DNA of 64,000 bases from Fibrobacter sp. (lineage in GTDB: Bacteria; Fibrobacterota; Fibrobacteria; Fibrobacterales; Fibrobacteraceae): positions 212,431 through 276,430 of the forward strand of contig JAFPWY010000008.1 in the NCBI GenBank assembly GCA_017412605.1. The letters are read 5' to 3'. The notes beneath the pieces were generated by a model. That model ran no database searches. It had not been told where the DNA came from and saw nothing but the letters and a program-made list of their open reading frames with translations. Both the position numbers and the translations under genes were made by a program. This document shows, one piece after another, positions 5,712 to 29,961 of the stretch. How positions within the stretch are numbered: the first letter of the stretch is position 1; each line of letters begins with the position of its first letter.

Positions 5712-6734
5712 TCACACAAGACATTTTGATGACAAGGCGAATTTTATTTTTTTTATAATATTCCCATTCGTCTTCCGCATAGCATTAGAAAGTCCACGGA
5801 AATACTTTAATGTAAGGGCAACCAACGAATCCCCTTCGGGGCGAAGGCTCGCAACGCATTGCGAAAGCGCCGATACCGCGGAAAGTTTCATAGCTTGCAA
5901 TATCCCGACAAGCAAGGCTCCTTCTGTTATGCCAAAAGAAAATACAGAATAAAGAACCTTGCCAGAGGGGACTAGAATATTTGCAAAGACAACGAAAAGC
6001 CACATAACAAGATGCGGAGTAAGCAGAATTTTTCGTCCCGAAACTCTTTGAGCAATTACAGAAGCGACAAGGCACACCCCTAGGATTTTCAAGTCATCCA
6101 GCATCAAGATAAACACAGCAGCAATTGCTATTACGACAGCAGTTGTAACCACAAAGGATTTTTTATGAAGGCAAATTTTCGATGCATTTTCACTCAATGT
6201 CGGGGCAATTTGGGGAATATGTAAGTGAAGTGCCATAAAAGCCGTAAGGATTCCCGCAAAAAGCGAAAAAAGAACCATAGGGCCAAGCAATGCATACGTA
6301 CCCTCACCCAGATAAAGGCTCGCCAAGGCTATTTGCACAACAGAACTTGCCGAAGCACCCGCTATCGAAATTCCATAAAGAGAAATAAATCTTATTTTCC
6401 CTGAATTTCTCCAGCTAAAGAGGTGATAAAGAGTATACATGACAATCGCTGAACTCACAGACTGCCCCAACGAAAGCAAGAAAAACGGAGTAAGTAACGT
6501 CCCCGCCATAAGGGATGCCGCAAACGCCTTTATCACCGAAAGCAATATGTAAGAAGGGAATGGCAGTGTGAAGGACAAAAGCATTACGACATTGCCTAGC
6601 CCAAGCCTAAAAAAGGGAAGCGTTCGTGGAAGGAACATCTCGGCATACGAGAAAAGCAGAGCCAAAGCGCCTAGATAAGCGATATATTCTTTTTCACGCA
6701 TCCATTTCGATGTCTGTTCATTGAGCAATGGCAT
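5712..6734 (-). CDS. Gx transporter family membrane protein (PF07456 type) with extra C-terminal membrane domain
   Basis: 340 residues from the ATG at 6734, chosen because GGAGG lies six bases upstream; the frame extends to a TTG at 6764. The N-terminal ~170 residues are a multi-spanning membrane domain with the GLGNVVMLL segment and the small-residue helices typical of proteins labelled Gx transporter or heptaprenyl diphosphate synthase component I (PF07456). These resemble ECF-type substrate-binding subunits. A second block of membrane helices (about 195-340) recalls the EcfT/CbiQ-like partner, so the protein may be a fusion. It overlaps the upstream NusG-II gene and is divergent from apbE. 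In other anaerobes this pair travels with ApbE/Rnf-type flavin functions, so flavin-precursor or quinone-related transport is plausible, not proven. Confidence 0.75.
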   Translation of the reverse strand: MPLLNEQTSKWMREKEYIAYLGALALLFSYAEMFLPRTLPFFRLGLGNVVMLLSFTLPFPSYILLSVIKAFAASLMAGTLLTPFFLLSLGQSVSSAIVMYTLYHLFSWRNSGKIRFISLYGISIAGASASSVVQIALASLYLGEGTYALLGPMVLFSLFAGILTAFMALHLHIPQIAPTLSENASKICLHKKSFVVTTAVVIAIAAVFILMLDDLKILGVCLVASVIAQRVSGRKILLTPHLVMWLFVVFANILVPSGKVLYSVFSFGITEGALLVGILQAMKLSAVSALSQCVASLRPEGDSLVALTLKYFRGLSNAMRKTNGNIIKKIKFALSSKCLV

Positions 6735-7092
6735 CGTAGCCCTCCGAATCTTCGACATGGACAATAACCTTGTTGGGGAGGCAAACTAGCGTTTTACCGA
6801 ATCCTTGGCGGATGCAAGTTTTGTTCTTGCATGGAGAACTTATAATATGCGTGCGCCCACCCTTAATTTCTATGACCGTTTCACCAAGATGTCCTTTGAC
6901 GCGATGGATTCCGTCTTCCTTTAAACTGAACTCATAAACACCGCCTTCAGCATGCACCGTAATCTTATCACCCGACACGCGCAGGGAATCTTGCATGACA
7001 TAAATTGCACCAACGAGAATCAAGGCAAAAAGCAGATAATCTAAAGGTCTTGTCTCTTGAAAAATTTTTGTAAAAATCCATTTTGCACGCAT
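6718..7092 (-). CDS. NusG domain II-containing protein
   Basis: About 124 residues from the ATG at 7092 (GTG 7098 or TTG 7101 are alternatives). One N-terminal membrane anchor (DYLLFALILVGAIYVM) is followed by a small exported beta domain. That domain has GGVYEFSLKEDGIHRVKG, an SSPCKNKTCIRQG motif with two Cys, and LVCLPNKVIVHVE, the pattern of PF07009 (NusG_II). Such proteins are not the elongation factor NusG; they sit next to Gx-transporter genes and often to ApbE. It overlaps the downstream transporter by 17 bases. Its promoter region is shared with apbE and contains a perfect DtxR-like palindrome. Confidence 0.85.
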   Translation of the reverse strand: MRAKWIFTKIFQETRPLDYLLFALILVGAIYVMQDSLRVSGDKITVHAEGGVYEFSLKEDGIHRVKGHLGETVIEIKGGRTHIISSPCKNKTCIRQGFGKTLVCLPNKVIVHVEDSEGYDAIAQ

Positions 7093-7126
7093 CGACACCA
7101 AATATAAATTCTAAATTAAGATTTGT

Positions 7127-7143: not shown

Positions 7144-8187
7144 ATGAAGTTCATTATCGCAAAAAAATATCTACCATTCACATTGGCCGCGTTGTTTTTT
7201 ATTTCTTGTTCCAAAGAAGAAACCGCAAAGCCGGCCCCCTCGCCATCGGAAAACGTAAAATCCTTTGAAGCCATGAACACCTTCATGACCATCAAAAGCT
7301 ACGGCCCAAATGCCAGCGAGGCAAACGATTCCGCAGAAGTTCTTGTACAACAACTGGAATCATTACTTTCTACCACTAGGGATTCTAGCCATATTTACAA
7401 GCTGAACCACTCCGAAAGATATCCCGTGCAAGTCGATGCCAAGGTTAAGAAACTAGCCGATTTCTCCTTAGAAATGGCCAAAGAGACAGACGGAGCTTTA
7501 AATCCCGTACTCTATCCCATTGTACACGCCTGGGGGTTTACCACCGAGAATTACAGGGTTCCCTCTGACAGTGAAATACAGAATATTTTGCCCTTGACTG
7601 ACTACAATCAGGTCAAAATTTCGGAAACCGGAATTTCAATGAAACCTGGAATGATGATGGATCTAGGAGCCGTCGGAAAAGGATACACCGGAGACCAAAT
7701 TCTTGCCTTGTTAAAATCCAAGGGAATGACTTCGGCCATTCTGGATTTAGGCGGCAACGTCCAGACTCTCGGGTGCAAAAAAGACGGGAAAAAATGGAAA
7801 GTGGGTATCACCAATCCTTGGGACGGTCCCCCTATCGGAGGCATAGAAGTCTGCGACATGGCCGTTATTACCAGCGGAGGTTACGAAAGATTCTTTGAAA
7901 AGGAAGGAAATCGTTACATTCACATCTTTGACGGAAAAAAAGGAAAAACCGTAGAAAACGGTTTGTCGGCGGTTACAATTATCGCAAAAAGCGGACTTTA
8001 TGCCGATGCACTGAGCACCGCCCTATTTGTCATGGGCGAAGAAAGCGCCATTGAATTTTGGAAAAAAAATCGTAACAAATTCCAGATGCTTTTGTTGCGC
8101 GAAGACAAAAGTGCTATTTACACTAATGAACTTGAGTCTGTTATAAAATTTACCTATAACATAAACAATAGAATAGTCATCGACTAG
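7144..8187 (+). CDS. apbE: FAD:protein FMN transferase, lipoprotein form
   Basis: 347 residues. Transfers FMN from FAD to a Ser/Thr of target proteins outside the cytoplasmic membrane. A lipoprotein signal ends in FISC (Cys22). Family motifs follow: MNTFMTIK (44-51), DLGAVGKGY (173-181), the SAILDLGGNVQTLG strand (197-210), WKVGITNPWD (218-227), TSGGYERF (243-250), HIFD (260-263) and the metal-binding region YADALSTALFVMG (286-298). No Shine-Dalgarno is visible: the operator box sits directly in front of the ATG, so initiation may be leaderless or weak. The next gene in the same direction encodes a lipoprotein with two candidate flavinylation motifs. The divergent pair behind it (NusG-II and Gx transporter) fits an extracytoplasmic flavin theme. 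Confidence 0.93.
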   Translation: MKFIIAKKYLPFTLAALFFISCSKEETAKPAPSPSENVKSFEAMNTFMTIKSYGPNASEANDSAEVLVQQLESLLSTTRDSSHIYKLNHSERYPVQVDAKVKKLADFSLEMAKETDGALNPVLYPIVHAWGFTTENYRVPSDSEIQNILPLTDYNQVKISETGISMKPGMMMDLGAVGKGYTGDQILALLKSKGMTSAILDLGGNVQTLGCKKDGKKWKVGITNPWDGPPIGGIEVCDMAVITSGGYERFFEKEGNRYIHIFDGKKGKTVENGLSAVTIIAKSGLYADALSTALFVMGEESAIEFWKKNRNKFQMLLLREDKSAIYTNELESVIKFTYNINNRIVID

Positions 8188-8296: not shown

Positions 8297-10837
8297 ATGA
8301 AAAAAACAACCGCTATAAGAACGGCAGGATTATCCTGCGCGCTCGCATTCGGCCTGACCGCATGCGGTGACGATGTCACCAAGTACTACGATTCCGAAGG
8401 GAGAGAAATGTCAGTTACTGACACTCTTCTAGTAAAGGAAGTCATCACAGACTACGATACCATCGTGGTAACCGAGGTGATTACTAAAAAAGACACCATA
8501 AAGGCGACCGATGTCATCACGAAAAAAGACACCATAAAAGTGACCGACGCCATCACTAAAAAAGACACCGTGAAAGTGACCGACGTGATTACGAAAACGG
8601 ACACTGTGAAAACAACCATTGTCATAAAGGACACTATCCGCGATACCATCAAGGTGGAAGTCATTCCCGAGATCCCGGAAGCAGACCTAGTCTATGGTAC
8701 AGTAAATTTGACCTATGCTCAGTTCTACTATGGAGAAGTAAACAACGTAGATCCAGAATTGTACGCTACAACTGGAATTTACGACAAAGCAAGCATCCCC
8801 GATTCATTTGATGGTTATGACGCATTCACCAGCGCAACCACAAACAAGTACAAGAATTTCGGCCAGCTCGACGCAGACGTTGGAGAAAAAACGACCGAAC
8901 TGAAGGGAGTCAAGGCTGTAAATGTGGCCATCAGCAAAGCCCTTTACGACGAAGTGAAGAACAATGGATCTGAAAACGATAATAGTGATTTGTACAAGCT
9001 CGTTTCCGCAATAACTGTCATCGAAGACGCTCCAGCCGAATATAAGGTCATCAACTCCAGCGGCGTATTGAGCAAAACCATCGGAAAGACCATCACGCGA
9101 GCAGCCTCGCCTACAATCACCTCCAGCTCTAACTGGGGTAATTACATGGTTGTCATTCCAGGCATAGACATTACGGAAGCCAACACGAACAATTTACAAG
9201 GTATCGTTTTGGAAACCGAAGACGGCGAAAGCTACGGACTCATTCACCTCGGAAACATCTGGATGGACGTCCGCGAATTCGCATTCAGCGTCACCGAATT
9301 CATGGGCGGACACGGTGCGCAGCCATACAAAGCGACCACAGATATCGCAGGCAAGCGCATTTCTTCCATCCGTTACCTGCTCAAGGACGCTCCCGACGTC
9401 GTCTTGTCTACGAGTCTCTATATTCCCGTACAGGTTCCCGTTACGGCTGCCGTCGCCGAAGATAACGGCAGCATAACCTTCACGGCCGACGCTGCTATCG
9501 GCAATTACCGTTCTGCCAGCCTGAAGCTGGTCAGCTACTCCGTTGGTTCTGGCAGGAACGCGGTGACAACAAATATCGCTAACGGTAGCGCCTTCAGCAC
9601 TCGCTCAACCAGCATTAAATTCCCGACAGACGGTCTCAAGGCTGGCAGTTATACATTCACATTCGAAGATGTCAACGGAATTGCCGCTACATGCAATGTC
9701 AAGGTAACACTCGAACAGGACGGAGCACCGGTTGAAGACCTGTCCGGTATACTTTACGGCACGGTGAACCTGACTTATGCGCAGTTCTTTAATGGCGAAA
9801 TCAACGATATTGCCGCAAACGAAACCGCGACTGCCGGAAACTACAACGCAACAAGTGTTGCCGCTTGGGTCGAAGAAGATTACGACGCATTCACCAGTGC
9901 GACAAAGAGCAAGTACACCTTCTACGGTCAGGTTGACGCAGAAGTCGGCGAAGCCACATCTCAGTTGAAAGGCGTAAAGGAAGTGAATGTCGCCATCAGC
10001 AAGGCTCTTTATGCCGATGTGCAGAAGAAAATTGCAGCAGACGCCCAAGAAACCGACGGAAACGATCTCATCGCTTTGGTCAAGGCCGCCACATGGGGAA
10101 CAGAAAAGCCCGCAGAATACAAGGTCATCAACCCTGACGGATCCGTCAGCAAGACCCAGGGTGTAACCTATAGCAGAAAAGCATCCACTGAACCCACCAT
10201 ATCAACTTCGTCCAACTGGGGTAATTACCTGGTTCAGGTGAATGGAATCGACATTGTCGAAGCCAACATGAAAAATCTGCAATCCATTATCCTTGAAACC
10301 GAAGATGGAGTAAAATACGGCCTTATTCACTTGGGCAACATCTTTAACAACGCTGGTGAGTTCGCATTCAGCGTAGCTGCCATGACGGAACCTCACGGCA
10401 ACCATGTTCCATACTTGTCGACTGAAGATATCGAGGGCAAACGCATCGTCAAAATTCTTTACATGCTGAAGGACGCTAACGACATAGAACTTTCGACTAG
10501 CATTTATGTGCCAGTTCGCATTGGCGTAAGTGCAAATGCTGAATCCGTTTCCGTGGGCGATGAAATCACCTTTACGGTCGATGACGCGATTTCCAACTAC
10601 ACAAGCGCCAAGCTCAAGTTGGTAAGCTACACAGTGGGATCCGGCAGAAATGCAAAAACAACTGCTATCGAAAATGGGGGAACGTTCAGTTCTAGGGCAA
10701 AGAGCATTAAATTCGACACCTCCGTGTTGACAGTCTCCGAAGAAACCTCTTACAAGTTCAACTTTACTGATGCCTCCGGAATCCTCTCCGGGACGTCGGT
10801 AACGGTAGCTGTTAAGCCAGCATCTTCTGAAGAATAA
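8297..10837 (+). CDS. Large lipoprotein with stalk repeats and two copies of a DAFTSAT domain; candidate ApbE substrate
   Basis: 846 residues from the ATG at 8297 (GAGG just upstream); the frame is open further back, but only this start gives a lipoprotein signal (LTAC, Cys23). Residues about 41-120 are a stalk of roughly ten-residue units of the type VITKKDTIKVTD. Then come two homologous blocks. Each starts YGTVNLTYAQF (133-143, and again near 490), contains a DAFTSAT motif (175-181 and 530-536), a GVKxVNVAISKALY segment, a TSSSNWGNY segment and a GLIHLGNI segment, and ends in an Ig-like region with SVGSGRNA. DAFTSAT resembles the DxxSGAT site flavinylated by ApbE, and apbE is the preceding gene. 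I infer a surface flavoprotein. The domain's true family is not known to me, and heme or metal binding remains possible. A strong terminator follows. Confidence 0.72.
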   Translation: MKKTTAIRTAGLSCALAFGLTACGDDVTKYYDSEGREMSVTDTLLVKEVITDYDTIVVTEVITKKDTIKATDVITKKDTIKVTDAITKKDTVKVTDVITKTDTVKTTIVIKDTIRDTIKVEVIPEIPEADLVYGTVNLTYAQFYYGEVNNVDPELYATTGIYDKASIPDSFDGYDAFTSATTNKYKNFGQLDADVGEKTTELKGVKAVNVAISKALYDEVKNNGSENDNSDLYKLVSAITVIEDAPAEYKVINSSGVLSKTIGKTITRAASPTITSSSNWGNYMVVIPGIDITEANTNNLQGIVLETEDGESYGLIHLGNIWMDVREFAFSVTEFMGGHGAQPYKATTDIAGKRISSIRYLLKDAPDVVLSTSLYIPVQVPVTAAVAEDNGSITFTADAAIGNYRSASLKLVSYSVGSGRNAVTTNIANGSAFSTRSTSIKFPTDGLKAGSYTFTFEDVNGIAATCNVKVTLEQDGAPVEDLSGILYGTVNLTYAQFFNGEINDIAANETATAGNYNATSVAAWVEEDYDAFTSATKSKYTFYGQVDAEVGEATSQLKGVKEVNVAISKALYADVQKKIAADAQETDGNDLIALVKAATWGTEKPAEYKVINPDGSVSKTQGVTYSRKASTEPTISTSSNWGNYLVQVNGIDIVEANMKNLQSIILETEDGVKYGLIHLGNIFNNAGEFAFSVAAMTEPHGNHVPYLSTEDIEGKRIVKILYMLKDANDIELSTSIYVPVRIGVSANAESVSVGDEITFTVDDAISNYTSAKLKLVSYTVGSGRNAKTTAIENGGTFSSRAKSIKFDTSVLTVSEETSYKFNFTDASGILSGTSVTVAVKPASSEE

Positions 10838-11011: not shown

Positions 11012-12139
11012 CTAGAAGCTGAAAACGGATTCAAGTCCAAAGGTAAGCCCTGTATCGTCGCCAGCGTCATCCCCAACAGGGATATCCACCATGGCAAAGC
11101 CTGTGACTTCAAGACCTTCCACCGGAGTGAAGTAAACACGGAGACCGAAATCGAACGTTGAAGTATCGTCATTCTTGTCCACGGTATTCGTGTGATATTC
11201 CAGCGGGAGTCCCAAGGCCAGCGCATCCATGACACTTACACCCGGTTCTGCGTAGGCAAAGAAGTATTCCGGAATTTCTTCGCCATGATCAGTCGGTTCG
11301 TCTTCGTCAAAGTAAGCGTAGAAAGCAGCGCCCTTCACGTTCACATTGCCAATTTCGAGCGAGGGTTCAGCCAAGAAAGCGTGCGTCGCCTTCGGAGAAT
11401 CCTCACCGAGGTAATCCGAATGCAGGCCATAGACGGCATGCAGGCCGAAAGCACCGAACTTCAGATTCGCATCGAGACCGGCGTGCAGCTCATTGTGTTT
11501 CGCTTCCTGATAGGACTTGTAGTCCACATAGGGGCGCAGCACATGTTCGCCGAGGCCGAGTTCGTAAGCAAGGTGGGCATCGTAAGCAACGCCTACACAT
11601 TCCTCTTCATCTTCTTCTCCGGTGCAAACCTGGTTGTCGTTATCACCACGACCAAAGCCGAGGCCGACAATCAAGCCATTGTAATCGACTTCAACGCCGC
11701 GGATATCGTGTTCTGCCATGCCAGCCGCATTGTCAGCCGGATCGTCATAACCGTAATAATTCAGGAATGCGCCTTCCGAGAAGGTCAAATCGCCGAACTT
11801 CACCGCAGCATTTTCGCCATGCGTATACTGGATAAATGCTCCATTGTAAATGGCAGTGGGGTCAGTCGTCTCGCCATCGGCTTCGAGCTGCACCGATGCA
11901 GACCACTTTTCATTAAACTGGACATCTACATTAAAGTCAAAGGTCGATGCGTAACTATGGCTCTGTTTATCGTCATTCAACACATCACCTGTATAGGCAT
12001 CAAATTCTACTTCGCCAGAGAATTTGACTTCGGGGCCCTTAGATTCCGCAGCAGCAGATTCCTGAGCAAGCGCGGGCATTGCGAGGATTGCAGCGGCAGC
12101 AAGGCTGAATAAAAGATTAGACGACAAACGGTTTTTCAT
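11012..12139 (-). CDS. Outer-membrane beta-barrel (porin-like) protein
   Basis: 375 residues: a signal peptide ending ALAQE, then alternating amphipathic strands rich in aromatic and acidic residues (VKFSGEVEFDAYTG, WSASVQLEADGE, GLIVGLGFGRGD), and a C terminus ending in VFSF, the terminal Phe expected for BAM-assembled barrels. One acidic loop holds a Cys pair (VCTGEEDEEEC). The specific substrate cannot be read from sequence. The gene stands alone between two terminators. A DtxR-like box lies about 150 bases upstream, so metal-responsive expression is likely. The long untranslated leader carries two inverted repeats (TGTAACA/TGTTACA at 12179-12215, and TTGGCAT/ATGCCAA at about 12222-12269). 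Confidence 0.8.
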   Translation of the reverse strand: MKNRLSSNLLFSLAAAAILAMPALAQESAAAESKGPEVKFSGEVEFDAYTGDVLNDDKQSHSYASTFDFNVDVQFNEKWSASVQLEADGETTDPTAIYNGAFIQYTHGENAAVKFGDLTFSEGAFLNYYGYDDPADNAAGMAEHDIRGVEVDYNGLIVGLGFGRGDNDNQVCTGEEDEEECVGVAYDAHLAYELGLGEHVLRPYVDYKSYQEAKHNELHAGLDANLKFGAFGLHAVYGLHSDYLGEDSPKATHAFLAEPSLEIGNVNVKGAAFYAYFDEDEPTDHGEEIPEYFFAYAEPGVSVMDALALGLPLEYHTNTVDKNDDTSTFDFGLRVYFTPVEGLEVTGFAMVDIPVGDDAGDDTGLTFGLESVFSF

Positions 12140-12374: not shown

Positions 12375-15323
12375 TTAATCTTCGAAGCGTTTTTCCTTGT
12401 TAGCCTTCATACCGAAGAGCTTGAGGAAAATTCCCGTACCCACGAGCACTGCGATGGCTGCGACAATCCACGTCACGTTTCCGCCAACAGGCACTTGGTA
12501 AAGGAGCACTGCAATGGCCCAAGCAAGCAGTGTCTGCACGGTCGCCATGAGAACAGCGAGGCCGAGGCCGATTTCGCGGGCGACGACACCCATCGCAGCA
12601 AGGCAAGGCACGTAAAGCAAGATGAAGATGAGGAACGCAAACACCTGCCAATTAAAGCCATCCACCGGGGTACCGTTCTTATCCGGATTGTGGAAGTAAG
12701 AGCGGAGGTTCGCGTAAATGTCGGCAGTTTCGGAAAGGTCGCCTTCTTCGAGAGCGCCCATTTCGTCTTCGGAGAGTTCGAGGCCTGCGGCAGCGAGTTT
12801 TGCAAACACGGCTTCGCGGGTCTTTTCATCCTCTTCTTCTTCGCCGAAGGTTTCGATGGCTGCATATTCTTCGCAGGTCAGCACCTTGGCGTCGGTAATC
12901 TTGTCAAGAGTTTCCTTCTTGAGTTCGGCAGCTTCCTGGCCTTCCAATTCGCCGGTGGTTCCGAGCGGGTCGGTGAGCGAGCCAAAGACTTCGGCGAGGT
13001 TAGCGGGAATCGAACCGAGGGCTTCGAGCACGGCCTCCTTGATGTCGGGAGCGCCGCCTTCTTCCTCTTCTTCGGCGGGGCATTCGTCGATGCCTACGAT
13101 AAGGGGCTTTTCTTCGGCAGGAGCGGCTTCGGCAACAACTTCTGCGGATTCAGCAGGTGCTGCGGCACTATCGGCAACCACTGCGCTATCGGTTACAGCG
13201 GAATCAGCAGCTGCAACAGTCGAATCGGCCTTCACGATATCCGTAGCGACAGAGTCAGCAACCGCCACTTGTTCCGGGGCGGATTCTTCAGCCTTCGGTT
13301 CTTCAACAGGTTCCGCAGCCTTATTTTCTTCTGCAGGCTTAGCCTCTTCAGCAGCCTCTTCGTTCTCACCCACCATCGAATACAGCGAGTTCATGGTACC
13401 GATAACGGCTTCCTTGGCCAAAAGGCCCGTGAACAGAGACACAGAGGCCGGCCAGTTTTCCTTTTCGACACCGAACGGTTCGAACACCGGCGTAATGGCC
13501 TTACCGATTACAGAGAGCAAGCTGTTTTCGGAGTCCCCGTTACCGGCAGTGAATTCATTAGCAGTGGAAATCTTGGATTCATCAACCATGAATCCTTCGG
13601 GGAGAGCGACATTTTCAGCTTCGCCTTCCTCGTTTTCCTTAACCATCTGGAAGCCATCTTCAGACTTGACGATTTCAGTCTCGGTACCGTTCACATCGAC
13701 ATACATCTTTTCCACGATGCCGAAACTGTTGAGGAAGCCGAGAACAGCAACCGCAAGCGTAATCACCTTACCGGCACGCCAAATGTAGTCACGCAGGCGC
13801 TGCCAGCAGTGGATCATCAAGGACTTGAATTTGGGCAAATGATACGGCGGAAGTTCCATCACAAAGTTAGAGGCCTGACCCTGGAACAGGGACTTCTTCA
13901 AGAAGAGGCCGTAGGCAACGGCGAACAGCACGCCAGCGAGGTAAAGCAGGAACACGACCGTGCCCGCCATCTTGCCAAAGAATGCCGCCGCGAACAGCGC
14001 ATACACCGGGAGGCGAGCGCCGCAGCTCATGAACGGCACCAGGAAGATGGTGAGGAAGCGTTCACGCTTGGATTCCAGCACGCGAGAGCCCATAATGCCC
14101 GGCACGCCGCAACCGAAGCCCACCATCATCGGCACGAAGGCACGACCCGGGAGCCCGAGGAATCTCATGAAGCGGTCCGCGACGAAAGCCGCGCGGGCCA
14201 TGTAACCCGAGTCTTCGAGGAACGAAAGGCACAGGAACATGAAGAAGATGACCGGAATGAAGGTCGAAACCGTCTGGATACCGGCACCGATACCGTCGGC
14301 GAGAATTGCCGTGACAAAAGACGGGCAACCAAGCACATCGCCCAGCACGTAGCCGAGGCCATCCACGAAAATCGCACCGAACAACACATCAAAGAAATCA
14401 ATGAATGCAGAACTGATGGTGACCGCAATCCAGAACACCAAATACATGATGACAAGGAAAATCGGGAGAGCGGCCCAACGGTTCAAAAGTACGGCGTCAA
14501 GCTTGTCCGAGAAAGTTTTCTTGGCACGCTTCTCCACAACAGCCTTCCCCGCCACTTCATGCGCAATGGAATAGCGGTTTTCGGCCATCGCGAACTCCGG
14601 CTCTTCGCCCAGAATCTTCACGACATCGGCCTTATGAAGCGTTACGCCCGCTTCGGCAAACTTGTCCGCATAACTCTTCTGGTTGCCCAAGTACATGAGC
14701 GAAACCCAACGGGCATCCGTCGCCAAGAGTTCTGCAACCGGAGCCACCTTCGGCTCCAAGACCTTCACAGCCTCTTCGACCTTATCGGCATAGGCAATCT
14801 GCTTCGGGACCGGCATCGGGCTTGCTAGCACATGGCCCATCTGGCTGATAAAGTTAGTGACGCTCTTTTCGCTCACAGCAGAAAGCGGAATGCACGGTAC
14901 GCCGTAGAAATCAGAAAGTTCATCGAGGTCCAGCTGGATTCCACGATTTTCGGCGATGTCCATCATGTTGACGGCAATCACCATCGGAATCTTCATGTCG
15001 GCAAGCTGGCTCGTGAGGAACAGGTTACGTTCGAGGTTCGTTGCATCGACAATGTTGATGATCAGGCTTGCTTCGCGGCTAAGCAGGTAGTCGACAGCGG
15101 CGCGTTCGTCTTCAGCATTTGCGAACAAAGCGTAAGTACCCGGAAGGTCCACCAGGCGAATCTGGCGGTCACCTAGTTCAAAGTAGCCTTCCTTCTTTTC
15201 GACAGTCACGCCGGGCCAGTTACCCACATGCTGACGGGCACCCGTAAGCGCGTTGAAGAGCGCCGTCTTACCGCAGTTCGGGTTACCGGCAATCGCAATC
15301 GTCAAAAGTTTTCTTGCGGCCAT
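12375..15323 (-). CDS. feoB: Ferrous iron transport protein B with a large acidic insertion
   Basis: 982 residues, about 200 longer than typical FeoB (E. coli 773). Imports Fe(II) through the inner membrane using an N-terminal G domain. G1 GNPNCGKT (13-20), the switch region HVGNWPGVTVE, G3 DLPG (59-62) and G4 NMMD (119-122) are all present. Two Gate-type membrane cores follow (MVGFGCGVPG; LLAKEAVIGT). After the second core lies an unusual stretch of about 200 residues, extremely rich in Glu, Ala, Ser, Asp and Val. Then the last helices resume at FNWQVFAFLIFILLYVPCLAAMG. It is translated last in dtxR-feoA-feoB and overlaps the feoA stop as TAATG. Expected to be repressed by the co-encoded DtxR-family protein when iron is plentiful. 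Confidence 0.95.
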   Translation of the reverse strand: MAARKLLTIAIAGNPNCGKTALFNALTGARQHVGNWPGVTVEKKEGYFELGDRQIRLVDLPGTYALFANAEDERAAVDYLLSREASLIINIVDATNLERNLFLTSQLADMKIPMVIAVNMMDIAENRGIQLDLDELSDFYGVPCIPLSAVSEKSVTNFISQMGHVLASPMPVPKQIAYADKVEEAVKVLEPKVAPVAELLATDARWVSLMYLGNQKSYADKFAEAGVTLHKADVVKILGEEPEFAMAENRYSIAHEVAGKAVVEKRAKKTFSDKLDAVLLNRWAALPIFLVIMYLVFWIAVTISSAFIDFFDVLFGAIFVDGLGYVLGDVLGCPSFVTAILADGIGAGIQTVSTFIPVIFFMFLCLSFLEDSGYMARAAFVADRFMRFLGLPGRAFVPMMVGFGCGVPGIMGSRVLESKRERFLTIFLVPFMSCGARLPVYALFAAAFFGKMAGTVVFLLYLAGVLFAVAYGLFLKKSLFQGQASNFVMELPPYHLPKFKSLMIHCWQRLRDYIWRAGKVITLAVAVLGFLNSFGIVEKMYVDVNGTETEIVKSEDGFQMVKENEEGEAENVALPEGFMVDESKISTANEFTAGNGDSENSLLSVIGKAITPVFEPFGVEKENWPASVSLFTGLLAKEAVIGTMNSLYSMVGENEEAAEEAKPAEENKAAEPVEEPKAEESAPEQVAVADSVATDIVKADSTVAAADSAVTDSAVVADSAAAPAESAEVVAEAAPAEEKPLIVGIDECPAEEEEEGGAPDIKEAVLEALGSIPANLAEVFGSLTDPLGTTGELEGQEAAELKKETLDKITDAKVLTCEEYAAIETFGEEEEDEKTREAVFAKLAAAGLELSEDEMGALEEGDLSETADIYANLRSYFHNPDKNGTPVDGFNWQVFAFLIFILLYVPCLAAMGVVAREIGLGLAVLMATVQTLLAWAIAVLLYQVPVGGNVTWIVAAIAVLVGTGIFLKLFGMKANKEKRFED

Positions 15324-15607
15324 TATACCCTCCTCAGCTTAAGAACGTTTGCTTCTTCCTTGCGCAGCGAAAGCCTGTACGAAAGTACTGCCACCTCGAT
15401 CGGGTCGCCGAGAGGGGCCGCCTGCAAGACTTCAATCTGCACGCCACGCACAAGCCCCATCGAAAGGAGCTTGGACTTGTAAGCGGAATCGCCTTCGTTA
15501 TAGCCGACGATTTCCACCTTGTCGCCACGTTTTAAGTCTGAAAATTTGGGATCCATATCCCATTTCTTTGCAGGGGTTTTGCCTCCGCATCCACAATTAC
15601 AACTCAT
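15323..15607 (-). CDS. feoA: FeoA-family protein with an N-terminal Cys cluster
   Basis: 94 residues from the ATG at 15607, which overlaps the upstream regulator's stop as ATGA; a longer frame to 15697 exists but lies inside that regulator. The C-terminal ~75 residues are the SH3-like FeoA fold: DLKRGDKVEIVGYNEGD, KLLSMGLVRGVQIEVLQ and DPIEVAVLSYRLSLRKEEANVLKL. The extra N terminus MSCNCGCGGKTP holds three Cys and could bind metal. FeoA proteins bind FeoB and support Fe(II) uptake. Translational coupling to feoB (TAATG overlap) implies matched synthesis. Confidence 0.93.
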   Translation of the reverse strand: MSCNCGCGGKTPAKKWDMDPKFSDLKRGDKVEIVGYNEGDSAYKSKLLSMGLVRGVQIEVLQAAPLGDPIEVAVLSYRLSLRKEEANVLKLRRV

Positions 15608-16002
15608 TTTTTCCTCTTTTTGAGATGTTCCACAGATTTCATATACTCTTCGATTTTGGCGAGCGTCTCGGCCGAAAGGATATGTTCCATATTGCAAGCG
15701 TCCTCGTTTGCCGCTTCCTCCGACACTCCCAAATGAATCAAAAACTGCCTCAGTAAAAGATGTCGGCTCAAAATGGTAACCGCGACTTTTTTCCCTTCTT
15801 CGGTGAGTTCCACGCCGCTGTAAGGCTCCTGCGACACGAGCCCCTGTTTCTTGAGTTCCGCCACAGCGCGCGCCACCGAAGGCATTTTTACGGTTAGGGC
15901 GGCAGCAATGTCCCTGATTCGGGCGATTTTGTTGGTCTGGAGCAAAACGTGAATCACTTCCAAATAATCTTCAAGACTCTGAGTTAGCTTTGATCGTTTC
16001 AT
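15604..16002 (-). CDS. DtxR-family metal-dependent repressor, first gene of the feo operon
   Basis: 132 residues: a winged helix (residues 1-65, recognition helix around KMPSVARAVAEL), then a dimerisation domain, and no C-terminal SH3 domain, so MntR-sized. Metal ligands can be read: Asp12/Glu15 in LEDYLE, His81, and Cys103-x2-Glu106-His107 in DACNMEHIL. The Cys-x2-Glu-His triad is the DtxR/IdeR (iron) version; MntR has Glu in place of Cys. I therefore predict Fe(II) sensing. It overlaps feoA by four bases and probably autoregulates through the boxes at 16021-16079. A close paralogue follows at 16191-16616. Confidence 0.92.
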   Translation of the reverse strand: MKRSKLTQSLEDYLEVIHVLLQTNKIARIRDIAAALTVKMPSVARAVAELKKQGLVSQEPYSGVELTEEGKKVAVTILSRHLLLRQFLIHLGVSEEAANEDACNMEHILSAETLAKIEEYMKSVEHLKKRKK

Positions 16003-16032: not shown

Positions 16033-16046
16033 TTAGACAAGGCTAA
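16033..16046. promoter_or_regulatory. DtxR-like operator upstream of dtxR-feoAB
   Basis: TTAGAC-AA-GGCTAA. Half-sites also flank it: GTCTAA at 16027-16032 and a degenerate box TTCGTC-AA-GGCTAA at 16066-16079, so several dimers could bind the 31-77 bases before the start codon. Confidence 0.6.
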
Positions 16047-16190
16047 TGTAGAAAAAACAGAATAGTTCGTCAAGGCTAATATTGTTGGTTTAGGAAAATT
16101 TACTTAGATTTAGCTAAAATTGTATCAAAATAAAAAGAAAGGACGAAACAACCCATTTCGCCCATATATATGTATTGATTACGATTATGC

Positions 16191-16616
16191 CTATTTTTTC
16201 GTGTTTTTTGCGGCCTTGGCCTTCTTGCCCGCAGCAGGTCCCTCGGCAGGGCCCATGAAGTCCTCGATTTTGCCCAGTGTTTCGCCCGAAAGGATGTGTT
16301 CCATGCAGCAGGCGTCCTTGTCGGCAATGGCTTCGGAGACGCCCAGTCGAATCAGGAAACTTTTGAGCAAAAGATGTCGGTTCAGAATCGCGGCGGCAAC
16401 GCGCTGGCCTTCTTCGGTGAGTTCCACCCCGCCGTACGGTTCCTGAGTCACGAGCCCCAGCTTCTTGAGTTCAATCATCGCCTTGGCCACAGACGGCATT
16501 TTGACCGAAAGAGAGGCCGCGATATCCTTGACACGGGCAATTCCGTGGGCGAGGCGCAACATGTGCACCATCTCCAGGTAGTCTTCAAGACTTTGGCTGA
16601 GTTTTGTGTTTTCCAT
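16191..16616 (-). CDS. Second DtxR-family metal-dependent repressor
   Basis: 141 residues, collinear with the neighbouring regulator over its first 120 residues (SQSLEDYLEMVHML, KMPSVAKAMIELKK, GVELTEEG, NRHLLLKSFLI) and clearly a paralogue. The metal triad Cys103-x2-Glu106-His107 (DACCMEHILS) is kept, with an additional neighbouring Cys104. The C terminus adds an Ala/Lys-rich basic tail (GKKAKAAKNTKK). It lies downstream of the P1B-ATPase, with a 72-base gap holding its own candidate operators, so it may be both read through from the ATPase and separately controlled. A division of labour between the two regulators (uptake versus efflux, or different metals) is plausible but not visible in the sequence. 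Confidence 0.9.
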   Translation of the reverse strand: MENTKLSQSLEDYLEMVHMLRLAHGIARVKDIAASLSVKMPSVAKAMIELKKLGLVTQEPYGGVELTEEGQRVAAAILNRHLLLKSFLIRLGVSEAIADKDACCMEHILSGETLGKIEDFMGPAEGPAAGKKAKAAKNTKK

Positions 16617-16688: not shown

Positions 16689-18791
16689 TTACGGAATACG
16701 CCGTTTTAGCGGCGTCATGCTCTTGGCACAAATCGCCATGGTCGAGAGGTTGTGCAGCAGGGCCGAGGTCGAGGGGGCCAGCAGGCCGAAGAAGCCTGCC
16801 ACGAGCAGCGACGTGTTGAAGGCGACGATAAAGCGGTAATTCGCCTGGATACGTTCCATAAGCTGGACGCTCAATGTACGGAGTTCCGCAAGGTCGCGCA
16901 GGTCTTCGCTGCGGAGCGTCACGTCGGCGGTTTCGCGGGCAATGTCGCTCGCATCGCTCATGGCAACCGACACGTTCGCAGCAGCAAGAGCAGGAGCATC
17001 GTTGATTCCGTCGCCCACCATAACCACGCGGCGGCCTTCGGCCTTCATTTTTTCCACATAGCGGTGCTTGTCTTCGGGCAGCACCTGCGCAAAGAAGGTA
17101 TCGATGCCCAAAAGTTGCGCCGTGCGTTCGGCGGACTTCTGGCTGTCGCCGGTAATCATCGCCACATGCTTGATTCCGCGTTCACGGAGCATGCGGATCG
17201 CTTCGGCCGCTTCGTCCCGCGGAGGATCGCTAATGCAAAGCACACCCGCAAGGTTCCCGCCAATGGCAAGGTAAATCACGGATGCGGCTCCGGCGAGTTC
17301 GTCGATCCTTTTCTGTTCCGCCTCGCCCACTGCAATCTTCTCATCTTCGACAACGAAATGCTTGCTACCGATGACGGCACGTTCCCCGTTCAGTGTGGTC
17401 GCAATTCCATGCGCAACGATGTACTGAACGTCGGCGTGCTCTTCTTCGTGATCGATTCCCCTGTCGAGAGCCCCGCGCACAATGGCACGAGCCATGCTGT
17501 GCGGGAAATGCTCCTCGATACAGGCCGCGATGCGAAGCACCTCCTCTTCGCTACGGCCTTCAAAGGGAATGACACGTTCGAGCTTAGGTTCTGCTTTGGT
17601 GAGAGTCCCCGTCTTGTCGAAAATGATGGTGTCGGCAAGCGCAAATTCTTCCAGATACTTGCCGCCTTTTACGGTCATGTTGCGGTCGGCCGCTTCGCGC
17701 AGCGCCGAAATCACCGAAATCGGGGTGGATAGCTTGATGGCGCAGGAATAGTCCACCATCAGAATCGAGACGGCCTTGGTGATGTTGCGCGTAAACAGGA
17801 GCGTGAGTCCAAAACCGATAAAACTGAACGGCACAATTCCGTCGGCAAGCCTTTCGGCCTTGCTCTGGATAGAGGCCTTGAGGTCTTCGGACTGGTCGAT
17901 GAGTTCGATGATTTTTTGAATTTTTGTGTTGCCATTCACGGCCCGCACCGAGACAACAATCGAGCCTTCGTCGAGGATGGTCCCTGCAAATACGGTTTTC
18001 CCGGCGGACTTGTGGACAGCCTGCGATTCGCCCGTCATGGTCGCCTCGTTCACGAAGGCATCGCCATCGACAACGGTTCCATCCACAGGAATCATGCTGC
18101 CGGAACGAACGCGCACAAGGTCGCCTTCCTTGACATCTTGCATACGCACCTGGACATCGACGCCGTCACGGACCACCCACACACGGTCCACCTTCACGGC
18201 AAGGCTTGCGGTAAGGGCCGTGCGGGTACGCGCCTTGGTGTAATCTTCCAGAAGACTGCTGACACTCAACAGGAACATGATGGTTCCCGCCGAATTGTAA
18301 TTCCTCTGCAGAATGCTTGCCCCGATGGCGGCCCCGTCCAACACTTCGACGGTGAGCTTGCCCTGCGAAAGAATGTCCAGCCCCTTCACGACGTATTTCA
18401 GTCCTTTGTAAACATGGACAGCCGTCCTGATGGGCAGCGGGACAATCCACTTGAACAGGTAACGGCGAGCAAGCATGAACGCAAGCCGGTTCTTGAACTT
18501 GGAATCCAGAGCCTGCAGCTGATAGTCAGTATCCGGCTCCCCCTCGGGCAACGCCGCGGGATTTAGCTTTTTAACGAACTCAATTAGCTGTTCATGATAA
18601 AACTGTTCACGAGAACCGGTTTCATATTCAATGAGAATACCTCCGTTTTCAGAGTGGACGACGGCGCGTTTTACAAAGGGATACGCCACGCACGCCTTGT
18701 GAATGCGCGGCTCATGTTCCGGTTCAAAAGCGTACGCCCCCGCGCGAAAGCGGATTCGCCCCGGCTGATCGTAAACAATTTTTGTGCGCAT
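16689..18791 (-). CDS. P1B-type heavy-metal-transporting ATPase with a YSC membrane motif
   Basis: 700 residues. The actuator motif TGES (253-256), phosphorylation site DKTGT (392-396), nucleotide-domain EEHFPHSMARAI (426-437) and hinge GDGINDAPAL are all present, so it should be an active pump. In the metal-binding transmembrane helix the usual Cys-Pro-Cys is Tyr-Ser-Cys (348-350, within DYSCAIKLSTP), which argues against Cu or Zn CPC-type selectivity and is compatible with Mn/Fe/Co-type export. There is no CxxC HMA domain; instead the N terminus has a QPGRIRFR-type domain. The preceding small gene (DUF6110-like) ends only six bases upstream, and the second DtxR-type regulator follows. Metal efflux controlled with the iron island is the likely role; the ion is unproven. 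Confidence 0.9.
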   Translation of the reverse strand: MRTKIVYDQPGRIRFRAGAYAFEPEHEPRIHKACVAYPFVKRAVVHSENGGILIEYETGSREQFYHEQLIEFVKKLNPAALPEGEPDTDYQLQALDSKFKNRLAFMLARRYLFKWIVPLPIRTAVHVYKGLKYVVKGLDILSQGKLTVEVLDGAAIGASILQRNYNSAGTIMFLLSVSSLLEDYTKARTRTALTASLAVKVDRVWVVRDGVDVQVRMQDVKEGDLVRVRSGSMIPVDGTVVDGDAFVNEATMTGESQAVHKSAGKTVFAGTILDEGSIVVSVRAVNGNTKIQKIIELIDQSEDLKASIQSKAERLADGIVPFSFIGFGLTLLFTRNITKAVSILMVDYSCAIKLSTPISVISALREAADRNMTVKGGKYLEEFALADTIIFDKTGTLTKAEPKLERVIPFEGRSEEEVLRIAACIEEHFPHSMARAIVRGALDRGIDHEEEHADVQYIVAHGIATTLNGERAVIGSKHFVVEDEKIAVGEAEQKRIDELAGAASVIYLAIGGNLAGVLCISDPPRDEAAEAIRMLRERGIKHVAMITGDSQKSAERTAQLLGIDTFFAQVLPEDKHRYVEKMKAEGRRVVMVGDGINDAPALAAANVSVAMSDASDIARETADVTLRSEDLRDLAELRTLSVQLMERIQANYRFIVAFNTSLLVAGFFGLLAPSTSALLHNLSTMAICAKSMTPLKRRIP

Positions 18792-25306: not shown

Positions 25307-27040
25307 TTATGCGTTCGAGACTTCCTGAAGTTCCAACATCTTGCTGAACAGGCCGCCTTTCGCCTTGAGTTCGGCAGGGGATCCTGTCTCGGCGATGTGA
25401 CCGTCCTGCAGCACAACGACCTTGTCGGCGTTTGCGATGGTACGCATACGGTGTGCAATGATGATGACGGTCTTGCCCTTCACCAACTGCGAGATGCCGC
25501 GCTGGATCTTGGATTCGTTTTCTACGTCAAGGCTTGCGGTCGCTTCATCGAGCAAGATAATCGGGGCATCCTTCAACAGGGCACGCGCAATCGAGATTCT
25601 CTGACGTTCACCACCCGAGAGCGTGTCACCATTTTCACCGATGACGGTATCGTAGCCCTGCGGCATCTTCTGCACGAATTCGTCACAGCCGGCAAGTTTT
25701 GCCACCTTCAGGATTTCCTCGTCGCTGGCATCGCGCTTGCCGATACGGATGTTATCCTTGATGCTCGTGTTGAATAGCACCACGTCCTGAAAGACAATGG
25801 AGAAATTCTTGAGGAGCGTTTCGGGGTCAATCTTGCTAATGTCCTGCCCGCCGAGGGTCACCTTGCCGCTCTGAATATCCCAGAAGCGAGCTGCAAGTTT
25901 TGCTGCAGTCGTTTTTCCGCTGCCGCTCGGGCCCACAAGTGCGGTGATTTCGCCCTGCCTTGCCGAGAACGAAACATTCTTCAGAACTTGCTTGTTCTCG
26001 TTGTAGTTAAAGTCAACATCCTTGAATTCGATATCATAATTAGCGGGCGTGAATTCCGTTACGCCTTCCTGAGGTTTCATCTGGTCCATTTCGCGGAACC
26101 GGCGCAGGCGCACATTCACAAAGAACAGTTCGGCGAGGTTGTTGAACACCAGATAAACCGGGTTGTAAACAGTCGCCGCGCACACGATGAACACCAAGTA
26201 GGTAAACACGTCGATTTCTCCCTTGGTCCAGAGTCGTGCGCCCGTAATCAGCACCGTGGCAAGGCCCATCTTGAGAATGCCTTGTGCCGAATTCAGGAAC
26301 ATGCCGACCTTGATGTCGGAATCCATCTGCGTTTTTTCGTAGCGGATGCAGTCCTTGTCAAAATGATTGAGGTAGGCGGTTTCACCCGAATACGAGCGGA
26401 TTTCCTGCACGTTTTCGAGACCTTCCTGGATATCTTCCATAATCACGCGGCGGGCGTTATATGAATTTTCGAACCAGCGGTCCTGAATTTTCTTGGAAAG
26501 CGCAATGAGCAATGCCGCTGCGGGTACCACCCAGAAAAGCGCGATAGACATTTTCCAGTTGTAGCAGAACAGCATAATGCCAATTATGGTGACGCTTCCG
26601 ATAGCGGCGAAAAGTTCCGGCACCGCATGCGAGAAAATCATTTCGAGTGCGTTGCAATCGTCCATGATGGTCGATGTCAAGTCCGAAAGGTTCTTTTTGC
26701 CAAAGAACGAGAGCGGCAGCTTGCGGAGCTTTTCGGCAATCGAGACTCGGCGGCGCATGCTTTCGTCGTAAACGCTGCTGTAAGTCGCACTGTACGAAAA
26801 CCTGTAAATGACTAGCATCACGATAAACAGGACTACCGCAATTCCTACGTAGAATAAGGTTCCGTGCGGAGTTTTGCCAGCAAATTCACCAATGCCCATC
26901 TGCTCCATCAAAAAATAAAAGAGCATCATCATCGGGAACATGAGCGAAACAAAGTGCAGGAATGTCCAGACAACGCCACGGACAAACGTGCGGGAGCCTT
27001 CTTCCGAAAGAGCAAAAGTATTCTGAACCCACTTATACAT
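25307..27040 (-). CDS. ABC transporter, fused permease/ATPase, second subunit
   Basis: 577 residues from the ATG at 27040, chosen because GGAGG lies five bases upstream; it overlaps the stop of the preceding ABC gene by eight bases. Six membrane helices occupy about the first 300 residues. The ATPase has Walker A GPSGSGKTT, signature LSGGERQRISIARAL, Walker B IILLDEATASLD and a switch His (IIAHRMRT). It forms a heterodimer with the upstream gene's product. The pair, next to an AraC regulator, DUF3793 and flavodoxin, resembles the YbtP/YbtQ or Irp6/Irp7 type that imports ferric siderophore despite an exporter fold. Import of an iron chelate is my inference; export or drug efflux is the alternative. 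Confidence 0.9.
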   Translation of the reverse strand: MYKWVQNTFALSEEGSRTFVRGVVWTFLHFVSLMFPMMMLFYFLMEQMGIGEFAGKTPHGTLFYVGIAVVLFIVMLVIYRFSYSATYSSVYDESMRRRVSIAEKLRKLPLSFFGKKNLSDLTSTIMDDCNALEMIFSHAVPELFAAIGSVTIIGIMLFCYNWKMSIALFWVVPAAALLIALSKKIQDRWFENSYNARRVIMEDIQEGLENVQEIRSYSGETAYLNHFDKDCIRYEKTQMDSDIKVGMFLNSAQGILKMGLATVLITGARLWTKGEIDVFTYLVFIVCAATVYNPVYLVFNNLAELFFVNVRLRRFREMDQMKPQEGVTEFTPANYDIEFKDVDFNYNENKQVLKNVSFSARQGEITALVGPSGSGKTTAAKLAARFWDIQSGKVTLGGQDISKIDPETLLKNFSIVFQDVVLFNTSIKDNIRIGKRDASDEEILKVAKLAGCDEFVQKMPQGYDTVIGENGDTLSGGERQRISIARALLKDAPIILLDEATASLDVENESKIQRGISQLVKGKTVIIIAHRMRTIANADKVVVLQDGHIAETGSPAELKAKGGLFSKMLELQEVSNA

Positions 27041-28892: not shown

Positions 28893-29729
28893 TCACGCGA
28901 CGTTTGTCATCCTGTATTTTTTCCTGTATTCCTTGGGGGTCATGCCCATCACGTCTTGGAAGGCGTGGGCAAATTTACTCCCGTTGTTGTAGCCGACCGT
29001 GCCTGCAATCTCAAGGATTCCCCGGTCACATTCGCGAAGCTGTCTTGCGGCACGCTTCATTCGCTCACGGCGAGCATAGGTAAATACAGGGAGACCGAAT
29101 ACGTTCTTGAAGCAGACCTTCATTGCAGTAGGCGGCATGTCGAACTTGTCGGCAAGTTCCTCGATGGTGTAGTGGGAATCGATGTTGTCGCAAATGAAGG
29201 AACGGATGCCGTAAACCTTTTCTGCCTGGAGCATTGAGATGTTGCAATCGCGACAGACCGATTCGCGCTGGGCATCCATATTCTTGAGAGTAACCAGGAT
29301 TTCAAGGAGCCCGAGTCGGCCATATTCCTGACAAACATTTTTCTGGGTGTGTGCGAACTTCGAGAAAACCGCCTGGATTTCTTCGTGCGTGTGCACGATA
29401 AAGGGCTTTTCGTGAATGTTGAATTTTTTCTGGATGGAATCCAGGTCGATGTCGAAGCCCCCGAAATTCTTGCGGATTGCATCTACCGCTTCTTCATAGA
29501 ACAAGATGATGTCTCCGCAGTAATCTGCCGAACGCTTGAGACCGCTCAAGATCCAACCATCGCAAACGATCATTTCACCCGGTTCCATGTGGTTGCAGGG
29601 CAAGAGCCCTCCAGCCCATTCCACGCGTCCCTGCCGGCAGAATTCCAGAGCAAGTACAGGAACCTTAGAAGAAATTACACCGGCCGTACCGATGTTTTGG
29701 CGCCATTCTATTCCAACGATATTTAACAT
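28893..29729 (-). CDS. AraC-family transcriptional regulator
   Basis: 278 residues. An N-terminal sensing region with several Cys (CRQGR, CNHM, VCDG, and VCRDC before the DNA-binding part) precedes a C-terminal AraC double helix-turn-helix: YTIEELADKFDMPPTAMKVCFKNVFGLPVFTYARRERM and GILEIAGTVGYNNGSKFAHAFQDVMGMTPKEYRK. Similar in plan to YbtA/PchR-type activators of siderophore uptake. First gene of the ABC-DUF3793-flavodoxin unit, and preceded by two DtxR-like boxes. The expected logic is derepression at low iron plus activation by the imported ligand. AAGGGG lies before the ATG. Confidence 0.9.
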   Translation of the reverse strand: MLNIVGIEWRQNIGTAGVISSKVPVLALEFCRQGRVEWAGGLLPCNHMEPGEMIVCDGWILSGLKRSADYCGDIILFYEEAVDAIRKNFGGFDIDLDSIQKKFNIHEKPFIVHTHEEIQAVFSKFAHTQKNVCQEYGRLGLLEILVTLKNMDAQRESVCRDCNISMLQAEKVYGIRSFICDNIDSHYTIEELADKFDMPPTAMKVCFKNVFGLPVFTYARRERMKRAARQLRECDRGILEIAGTVGYNNGSKFAHAFQDVMGMTPKEYRKKYRMTNVA

Positions 29730-29757
29730 AATAAACCCCTTGGCTTTCGCCTTTATG

Positions 29758-29771
29758 TTAGCCTTGGCTTA
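29758..29771. promoter_or_regulatory. DtxR-like operator 1 upstream of the AraC gene
   Basis: TTAGCC-TT-GGCTTA, near-perfect palindrome 28 bases before the AraC start codon. Confidence 0.55.
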
Positions 29772-29804
29772 AAAAGTGAGATAAATCTAACTTCATGCAA
29801 AAAC

Positions 29805-29818
29805 TTTGTCAAGGCTAA
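29805..29818. promoter_or_regulatory. DtxR-like operator 2 upstream of the AraC gene
   Basis: TTTGTC-AA-GGCTAA; the right half equals that of the box at 16033, the left half has one mismatch. Confidence 0.45.
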
Positions 29819-29961
29819 CTTATGGGATAAAAAGGTTCATTTCTATAATTTTTTTCTTACGTCCCCCACTTTCTTATGTCTATTTGGAGCCAAAACAACC
29901 CATTCGGGATAATTTCTAAAAAAATTTCACATTTCTTAGGCTAATCGGATTTTATGATTTC

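Follow-up and report, generated by a model that had tools for sequence, protein, structure and literature searches.

A lipoprotein next to ApbE in Fibrobacter

We analyzed a 64-kb stretch of DNA from Fibrobacter sp. (the window; part of contig JAFPWY010000008.1 in assembly GCA_017412605.1). One of its genes encodes a lipoprotein whose two halves are homologous and both contain the sequence DAFTSAT, and just upstream is apbE, which is predicted to encode a FAD:protein FMN transferase (FAD, flavin adenine dinucleotide; FMN, flavin mononucleotide). An earlier note on this DNA had proposed that ApbE attaches flavins to the lipoprotein at the two DAFTSAT sites. We think that this is probably correct: both halves of the lipoprotein have the predicted fold of the Treponema pallidum protein Tp47, and ApbE would attach FMN at Thr181 and Thr536, which would yield a two-flavin carrier outside the inner membrane.

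The features of this region are listed in Table 1. The lipoprotein has a lipobox (LTAC, with Cys23) that we identified by reading the sequence. The signal peptide and the lipobox would place it outside the cytoplasm, as expected for a substrate of ApbE. Next is a stalk of Thr/Lys-rich repeats (about residues 40-125), and then the two halves, which are 54.6% identical over 359 columns. Both DAFTSAT sites are exactly where the earlier note put them. That note also mentioned a lysine two or three residues after each site; the lysine is there, and it is always three residues past the last threonine (Lys184 and Lys539). When we shuffled the lipoprotein while preserving its composition, 3.2% of shuffles had at least one match to D..[ST][SG]A[TS] and 0.06% had two. 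Because the two halves are so similar, the two motifs are homologous and are not independent events.

Table 1. Features near the lipoprotein gene, with positions in the window.
Feature	Position	Strand	Remarks
EetB-like ECF (energy-coupling factor) S-subunit	5712..6764	-	PF07456 (Hpre_diP_synt_I / Gx transporter), E = 6.3e-21; predicted FAD exporter
NusG domain II protein	6718..7101	-	Pfam NusG_II, E = 8.7e-17; in all 5 modules
Operator-like site TTAGACCAGTCTAA	7127..7140	+	3 bp before the start of apbE
apbE	7144..8187	+	PF02424, E = 7.9e-79; predicted FAD:protein FMN transferase
Operator-like site TTAGCCTCATCTAA	8234..8247	+	Before the lipoprotein gene
Operator-like site TTAGCCCAGTCTAA	8255..8268	+	Before the lipoprotein gene
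Lipoprotein gene	8297..10837	+	846 amino acids; signal peptide, lipobox, repeat stalk, two homologous halves
Tp47-domain-a-like domain, copy 1	8678..9088	+	Residues 128-264; found by domain profile
DAFTSAT site 1	8819..8839	+	Residues 175-181; predicted FMN acceptor Thr181 (8837-8839)
Tp47-domain-a-like domain, copy 2	9755..10165	+	Residues 487-623; found by domain profile
DAFTSAT site 2	9884..9904	+	Residues 530-536; predicted FMN acceptor Thr536 (9902-9904)
Operator-like site TTAGTCTAGTCTAA	12288..12301	+	Between feoB and the gene at 11012-12139
feoB	12375-15323	-	Pfam FeoB_N, FeoB_C; ferrous iron uptake; outside the module
feoA	15323-15607	-	Pfam FeoA; ferrous iron uptake; outside the module
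DtxR-type iron-dependent repressor	15604-16002	-	Pfam Fe_dep_repress, Fe_dep_repr_C
Operator-like site	16033-16046		Between the two repressor genes
Operator-like site	16104-16117		Between the two repressor genes
DtxR-type iron-dependent repressor	16191-16616	-	Pfam Fe_dep_repress, Fe_dep_repr_C

As the earlier note had described, apbE lies directly upstream of the lipoprotein gene and in the same direction, and a gene pair that encodes a Gx transporter and a NusG domain II protein is divergent from them; Pfam supports all three assignments. PF07456 corresponds to EetB, which is the S-subunit of an ECF transporter that exports FAD. In Listeria, EetB is required for flavinylation and feeds the ApbE-type enzyme FmnB, and PF07456 genes are co-localized with apbE in 2,169 genomes (PMC9973259). 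The ATG of the eetB-like gene is at 6758. The position of the NusG_II protein beside this gene suggests that it is perhaps EetA-like.

The best match for the predicted ApbE in the PDB is 7esa ("FAD:protein FMN transferase", E = 1.7e-43), which we take to be FmnB, as the spacing of its residues suggests. Ser244, Arg249, His260, and Asp288 of ApbE are spaced like Ser257, Arg262, His273, and Asp301 of FmnB (residue numbers from PMC12052999).

Overall, the locus resembles the system for flavin-based extracellular electron transfer in Listeria monocytogenes (FmnB, EetA, EetB, and PplA), in that the gene for a lipoprotein accompanies those for an ApbE-type enzyme and an EetB-type exporter (PF07456). 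PplA has two FMN_bind domains. In contrast, the Fibrobacter lipoprotein has no match to FMN_bind, and using Pfam, we did not find an FMN_bind lipoprotein like PplA in 61 Fibrobacter genomes or in the five genomes that carry the locus.

ApbE and the lipoprotein are found in the same genomes

We searched for ApbE and the lipoprotein family in 80 Fibrobacter genomes, and for PF07456, FMN_bind, and NqrB/RnfD in an earlier draw of 61. ApbE is present in 5 of the 80 genomes and the lipoprotein is present in the identical 5. PF07456 is found in these same five genomes as well (among the 61). If the genomes were independent, then the probability that two 5-of-80 sets would coincide is 4e-8; if the carriers are treated as three lineages, it is 1.3e-5. 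Thus the co-occurrence with apbE that the earlier note had asked about is present within the genus, and the lipoprotein is genetically associated with apbE.

We then compared about 20 kb around each of the five copies (12 kb for G076), considering frames of at least 90 amino acids. Just four genes are common to all five: those for the NusG_II protein, the PF07456 protein, ApbE, and the lipoprotein. We will refer to these as the module. The arrangement is divergent in two of the five (the window and G030), and in the others (G035, G076, and G078) it is convergent. The surroundings also vary, with feo and dtxR genes in the window and in G030, heme-synthesis genes in G035, and thiamine genes in G076 and G078. 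(The hem genes were checked with Pfam and the thi labels were assigned by eye.) In G035 (locus L110, 3066-6692 and 12434-13720), the module lies within a heme-synthesis cluster that includes a methylase/HemD fusion, ALAD, and a class-III aminotransferase that resembles HemL. Literature searches, whose coverage did not extend to most subscription journals, found nothing on flavinylation or ApbE in Fibrobacter.

DAFTSAT is one residue away from the motif for flavinylation

ApbE recognizes D-x-x-[S/T]-G-A-[S/T] and attaches FMN to the last residue (PMC12052999). DAFTSAT does not fit this canonical motif, and it differs from it at one position, with Ser instead of Gly at +4 (counting from the Asp). 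The earlier note had listed two differences, Thr for Ser and Ser for Gly. The first is not a difference, as either Ser or Thr is canonical at +3; the second stands. Similarly, of the acceptors that were suggested, the rule that the last residue takes FMN retains Thr181 and Thr536 and eliminates Thr178 and Thr533 (PMC12052999). In a model substrate from K. pneumoniae, replacing the Gly with Ala or the Ala with Val keeps about 50% of flavinylation (PMC12052999), so Ser instead of Gly may be tolerated. The Asp can also be replaced with minor effects (PMC12052999). Because of the Ser at +4, we do not classify the lipoprotein as a member of the known ApbE substrates; we claim only that it likely works as one.

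The earlier note had also stated in advance that its proposal would fail if the key residues of the motif were not conserved. We examined 109 copies of the domain, from the window and from loci L038-L105 and L107-L113, keeping the near-identical copies from Fibrobacter. The motif columns are present in 107 of these copies, and D-x-x-[ST]-x-x-[ST] is maintained in all 107, so the proposal holds up on the Asp and on the residues at +3 and +6. The last residue is Thr in 106 copies and Ser in the other, so a hydroxyl acceptor is conserved. The residues at +4 and +5 do vary: at +5, there are 73 Ala, 26 Pro, 5 Val, 2 Ser, and 1 Cys. Among 69 aligned rows, the Asp is invariant (69/69), +3 is Thr (41) or Ser (28), +4 is always Ser (69/69), +5 is Ala in 59, the last residue is Thr (68) or Ser (1), and a Lys lies three residues beyond it in 67. 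The conserved residues include the predicted acceptor, a terminal hydroxyl, which is what ApbE needs most. The motif is also kept at the loci of three genomes that seem to lack ApbE (G085, G106, and G123), but these genomes may be incomplete. Between the genetic association and these residues, it is likely that FMN is attached.

The lipoprotein has the predicted fold of Tp47

A predicted model of the first half of the lipoprotein matches Tp47 (PDB:1o75), and among the matches listed, Tp47 was the sole entry that was matched by the motif domain alone. Together, the model and the domain profile assign the lipoprotein to the Tp47 fold. Pfam's models for this protein, PBP-Tp47_a (PF14889) and PBP-Tp47_c (PF14888), do not match the lipoprotein from the window; PF14889 does match 19 of 48 aligned domains from the family at E = 0.01. 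We rejected the idea that the lipoprotein is an FMN_bind protein, as it has no match to that family in Pfam at E = 1. No FMN_bind chain was among the matches listed for the half model or for the motif domain, but absence from these matches is not proof.

The earlier note had compared the lipoprotein to NqrC and RnfG, which belong to FMN_bind (PF04205). This likeness holds for the motif, which is of the ApbE type and one residue off D-x-x-[S/T]-G-A-[S/T] (the Ser for Gly). It does not extend to the fold, as the lipoprotein matches Tp47 instead and has no match to FMN_bind.

Tp47, a 47-kDa lipoprotein, has penicillin-binding or carboxypeptidase activity. It may also be linked to adjoining flavoprotein genes in T. 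pallidum, although a search of PMC4767422 did not turn up this link. We did not find any literature that links Tp47 to ApbE, but most subscription journals were outside the coverage of our searches. The Fibrobacter lipoprotein differs from Tp47 in several ways: its domains are in tandem copies, it has Ser and not Arg at +4, it lacks a match to the Tp47 families in Pfam, and it is encoded in an apbE/eetB module, a link that we did not find for Tp47 in the literature searched.

Relatives of the lipoprotein are near flavin-related genes

We scanned species-representative genomes for relatives of the lipoprotein and found 72 loci, mainly from Lachnospiraceae and other Firmicutes and from Synergistales, with one from Fibrobacter (L106). 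We considered flanks of at most 10 kb per side, which were shorter at contig ends. The flanks encode ApbE at 30 of the 72 loci, NusG_II at 19, PF07456 at 23, an FMN_bind-type frame at 53, and any of these at 54. By chance, we would expect about half an apbE in these 1.23 million bases (taking a typical genome to have a few million bases and about one apbE). The Fibrobacter locus is the sole one of the 72 with ApbE but without an FMN_bind frame. Fourteen of the 18 loci that have none of these genes are from Synergistales (L089, L090, and L092-L103).

We also searched 45 of the genomes in full (the 42 with no flanking ApbE, and those with loci L054, L106, and L107). ApbE is present in 42 of these 45 genomes and FMN_bind is present in 44, with Fibrobacter as the exception. 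For the 14 Synergistales genomes, the corresponding counts are 13 and 14. The Synergistales loci encode proteins, a number of them large and multi-copy, in which the motif is often DAVSSPT, with Pro in place of Ala.

Some relatives are fused to FMN_bind. Pfam confirms the fusion for 9 of 15 frames that were preselected by profile (in L057, L059, L068, L072, L074, L076, L082, L105, and L109) and does not confirm it for the others (in L058, L063, L065, L066, L081, and L087). Two of these frames, at 9485-13234 of L076 and 5560-8226 of L082, carry FMN_bind as well as genuine PBP-Tp47_a and PBP-Tp47_c domains (Pfam, E = 3e-67 to 9.5e-81). As predicted from their domains, these Firmicutes surface proteins are an architectural link between Tp47 and flavin-based electron transfer. 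In the Lachnospiraceae loci L038 (1647-2807) and L039 (11475-12656), the next gene encodes a fusion of a ferric-reductase-like membrane domain with FMN_bind, and this fusion protein might donate electrons to members of the family.

In a phylogenetic tree, the Fibrobacter rows form one clade (support of 99) inside a tree that is mostly Firmicutes. Since the tree is unrooted and was built quickly, we do not claim that Fibrobacter gained these genes horizontally from Firmicutes.

These relatives raise the possibility that domain a of Tp47 represents a new class of covalent-flavin domain, with the ApbE of Fibrobacter and of many gut Firmicutes adding FMN to the last Thr of D-x-x-[ST]-S-A-T, and with Tp47 itself, an antigen that has long lacked an explanation, as a relative of this family for extracytoplasmic electron transfer. 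We consider this broader proposal to be tentative and somewhat less likely than not. Flavinylation by ApbE is a common means of routing electrons beyond the membrane, and the known substrates span a handful of folds. If ApbE flavinylates the Fibrobacter lipoprotein, then the Tp47 fold would be added to these, and because of SAT instead of GAT, such substrates would escape scans for the canonical motif. Also, the gene neighborhoods and fusions would give a functional lead for a domain family that is known mainly from a syphilis antigen, and some Fibrobacter would have an unexpected extracytoplasmic redox system.

Alternatives to flavinylation of the lipoprotein

A different explanation, which we consider unlikely but which is the most probable of the alternatives, is that the three conserved residues of DAFTSAT (Asp, Ser/Thr, and Thr) have a structural role in the Tp47 fold or bind some other ligand there. 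The lipoprotein would then be a partner in a flavin system (for docking or for binding the electron acceptor, for instance), and ApbE would modify some protein that we did not recognize. Several observations weigh against flavinylation, and some of them favor this explanation.

First, at +4, the published motif has Gly, and the family never does: besides the invariant Ser of the 69 aligned rows, the 107 copies have Ser (87), Thr (14), Arg (5), or Leu (1). The 26 copies with Pro at +5 also depart from the published motif, which has Ala there. Second, among the Synergistales, copies whose fetched flanks show no ApbE retain the pattern (often as SSPT), and the corresponding sequence in Tp47 is DAVSRAT. 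Because the motif is kept in these cases, its residues could be structural. Conversely, locus L054 has SSPT despite having ApbE in its flank. More broadly, Ala at +5 is not significantly associated with a nearby ApbE (22/23 versus 19/25 rows, Fisher p = 0.10), and phylogenetically independent pairs were uninformative. Third, in the predicted model, DAFTSAT is ordered (predicted local distance difference test score of about 91) and is partly in a short strand, so it is not plainly an exposed loop. Fourth, the relatives in Firmicutes adjoin FMN_bind proteins, which are obvious substrates for ApbE, and because all 44 of the non-Fibrobacter genomes that we searched in full have FMN_bind, family members outside of Fibrobacter could serve as partners instead of being substrates themselves. 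Finally, the five carriers within Fibrobacter represent just a few lineages (about three: G000/G030, G035, and G076/G078).

On the other hand, if ApbE modifies another protein, then that protein is hard to find in Fibrobacter. In the 61 genomes, we found neither FMN_bind nor NqrB/RnfD, the main known targets of ApbE, although DUF2271, DUF3570, Flavodoxin_4, and FMN_red were not searched for. In the five carrier genomes, there was no FMN_bind hit above the cut-off, even with the search opened to E = 10. Fifteen of the 16 sub-threshold rows begin at the start of the profile (1-36, 1-41, or 1-61), and the remaining one (50-76) is from a 31-amino-acid frame in G030 only; we rejected all of these.

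DUF2271 and DUF3570 are substrates of ApbE that lack FMN_bind and keep the [S/T]GA[S/T] motif (PMC8238504), and Flavodoxin_4 and FMN_red are further substrates of this kind (PMC11334425). All four are different families from the lipoprotein's. They do provide a precedent for our approach: substrates were found by their co-localization with apbE and by their motifs, and were then tested by co-expression.

The canonical pattern D..[ST]GA[ST] does not occur in any of the four module proteins. In the lipoprotein's own genome, a scan for this pattern found 42 places, versus 41 for a control with the reversed pattern. We read all 42 (30 as loci and 12 within 11 fetched stretches), which gave 44 pattern matches and 22 peptides that fit D..[ST]GA[ST]. 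Overlapping stretches inflate both counts, and one of the frames contains a stop. Judging by eye from a signal peptide or lipobox, the secreted candidates were an FGE-sulfatase-like lipoprotein (L128) and the acidic, Ser-rich linker of a lipoprotein (L144). Neither is near apbE, and we retain them as weak rivals only. Of the others, L114 resembles FolK and L122 resembles a complex-I-type membrane protein (both named by eye).

Within the module, the lipoprotein is the only candidate substrate, because the four shared genes include no other extracytoplasmic protein. Since the module is predicted to export FAD and to transfer FMN, and the main acceptor families were not found, the lipoprotein is the likely acceptor. 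So, the earlier note's interpretation is partly supported, and its central claim, that the lipoprotein is a substrate of ApbE, gains genetic support from the identical set of five carriers among the 80 genomes, from the absence of the two main substrate families from the 61, and from the predicted activities of the module.

We view it as quite improbable that ApbE mainly splits the exported FAD, as the Ftp pyrophosphatase does, to provide soluble FMN as a shuttle or vitamin, and that any binding of flavin or ferric iron by the lipoprotein is non-covalent. The EetB-like exporter would fit with this. Also, our ApbE has Thr where 4ifu has Asn and 4xdt has Tyr (we take these to be Ftp from Treponema and its variant), so this residue does not settle whether the enzyme is a transferase or a pyrophosphatase. 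However, the triad and the arginine of FmnB are present, the best match in the PDB is named as an FMN transferase, and FAD splitting would leave unexplained both the strictness of the motif and the fact that ApbE and the lipoprotein co-occur.

It is least likely of all, and very improbable, that the lipoprotein binds heme or hemoproteins within an iron-acquisition regulon and that the flavin genes are merely its co-regulated neighbors: Shr-like_HID (PF07550) matches 14 of the 24 sequences that we aligned (with E as high as 0.1), iron-repressor-like sites are present, and in G035, the module is surrounded by hem genes, but the Fibrobacter lipoprotein itself does not match Shr-like_HID, and because the four genes remain linked across three distinct neighborhoods, the flavin genes are not mere neighbors.

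Potential regulation by iron and a proposed mechanism

The earlier note had reported that apbE and the lipoprotein gene share an operator, and we confirmed that they share an operator-like sequence: TTAG-N6-CTAA occurs once before apbE and twice before the lipoprotein gene (Table 1). Across the 64 kb, there are six such sites, versus 0.47 expected, and none of 100 shuffles reached six. The palindrome is also directly 5' of apbE in G076 and G078 (L111 and L112) and is upstream of apbE in G035 (L110). With palindromes before the genes and repressor genes nearby, the region has the form of a DtxR-type regulon, as judged by sequence. From the protein families, we infer that the module would be controlled by iron or a similar metal.

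If ApbE does flavinylate the lipoprotein, then the module might work as follows. The EetB-like subunit would export FAD, and ApbE would transfer the FMN part onto Thr181 and Thr536. The long stalk would keep both flavin domains at a distance from the membrane. The lipoprotein would be induced at low iron and would pass electrons to ferric iron or to another acceptor, in the periplasm or beyond. Finally, the ferrous product could be imported by the nearby Feo system, which is the weakest step in this scheme. That the lipoprotein carries electrons on the outside of the cell, as the earlier note proposed, is an inference; the reduction of ferric iron is only suggested, by the regulation and by the Feo neighbors.

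Several other genes are near the operator-like sites. The gene at 11012-12139 has no match in Pfam and appears porin-like by eye. FeoB from the window (982 amino acids) has a long acidic insert that is rich in Ala and Glu (at about 12860-13650, by eye), and the copy in G030 has 987 amino acids. A P-type ATPase of 700 amino acids (16689-18791) adjoins the repressors. At 29757-29819, two further sites resemble the operator less closely (2 mismatches) and lie upstream of genes for an AraC-type regulator (28893-29729) and then an ABC (ATP-binding cassette) transporter (27033-28817), which are perhaps in the same putative metal regulon.

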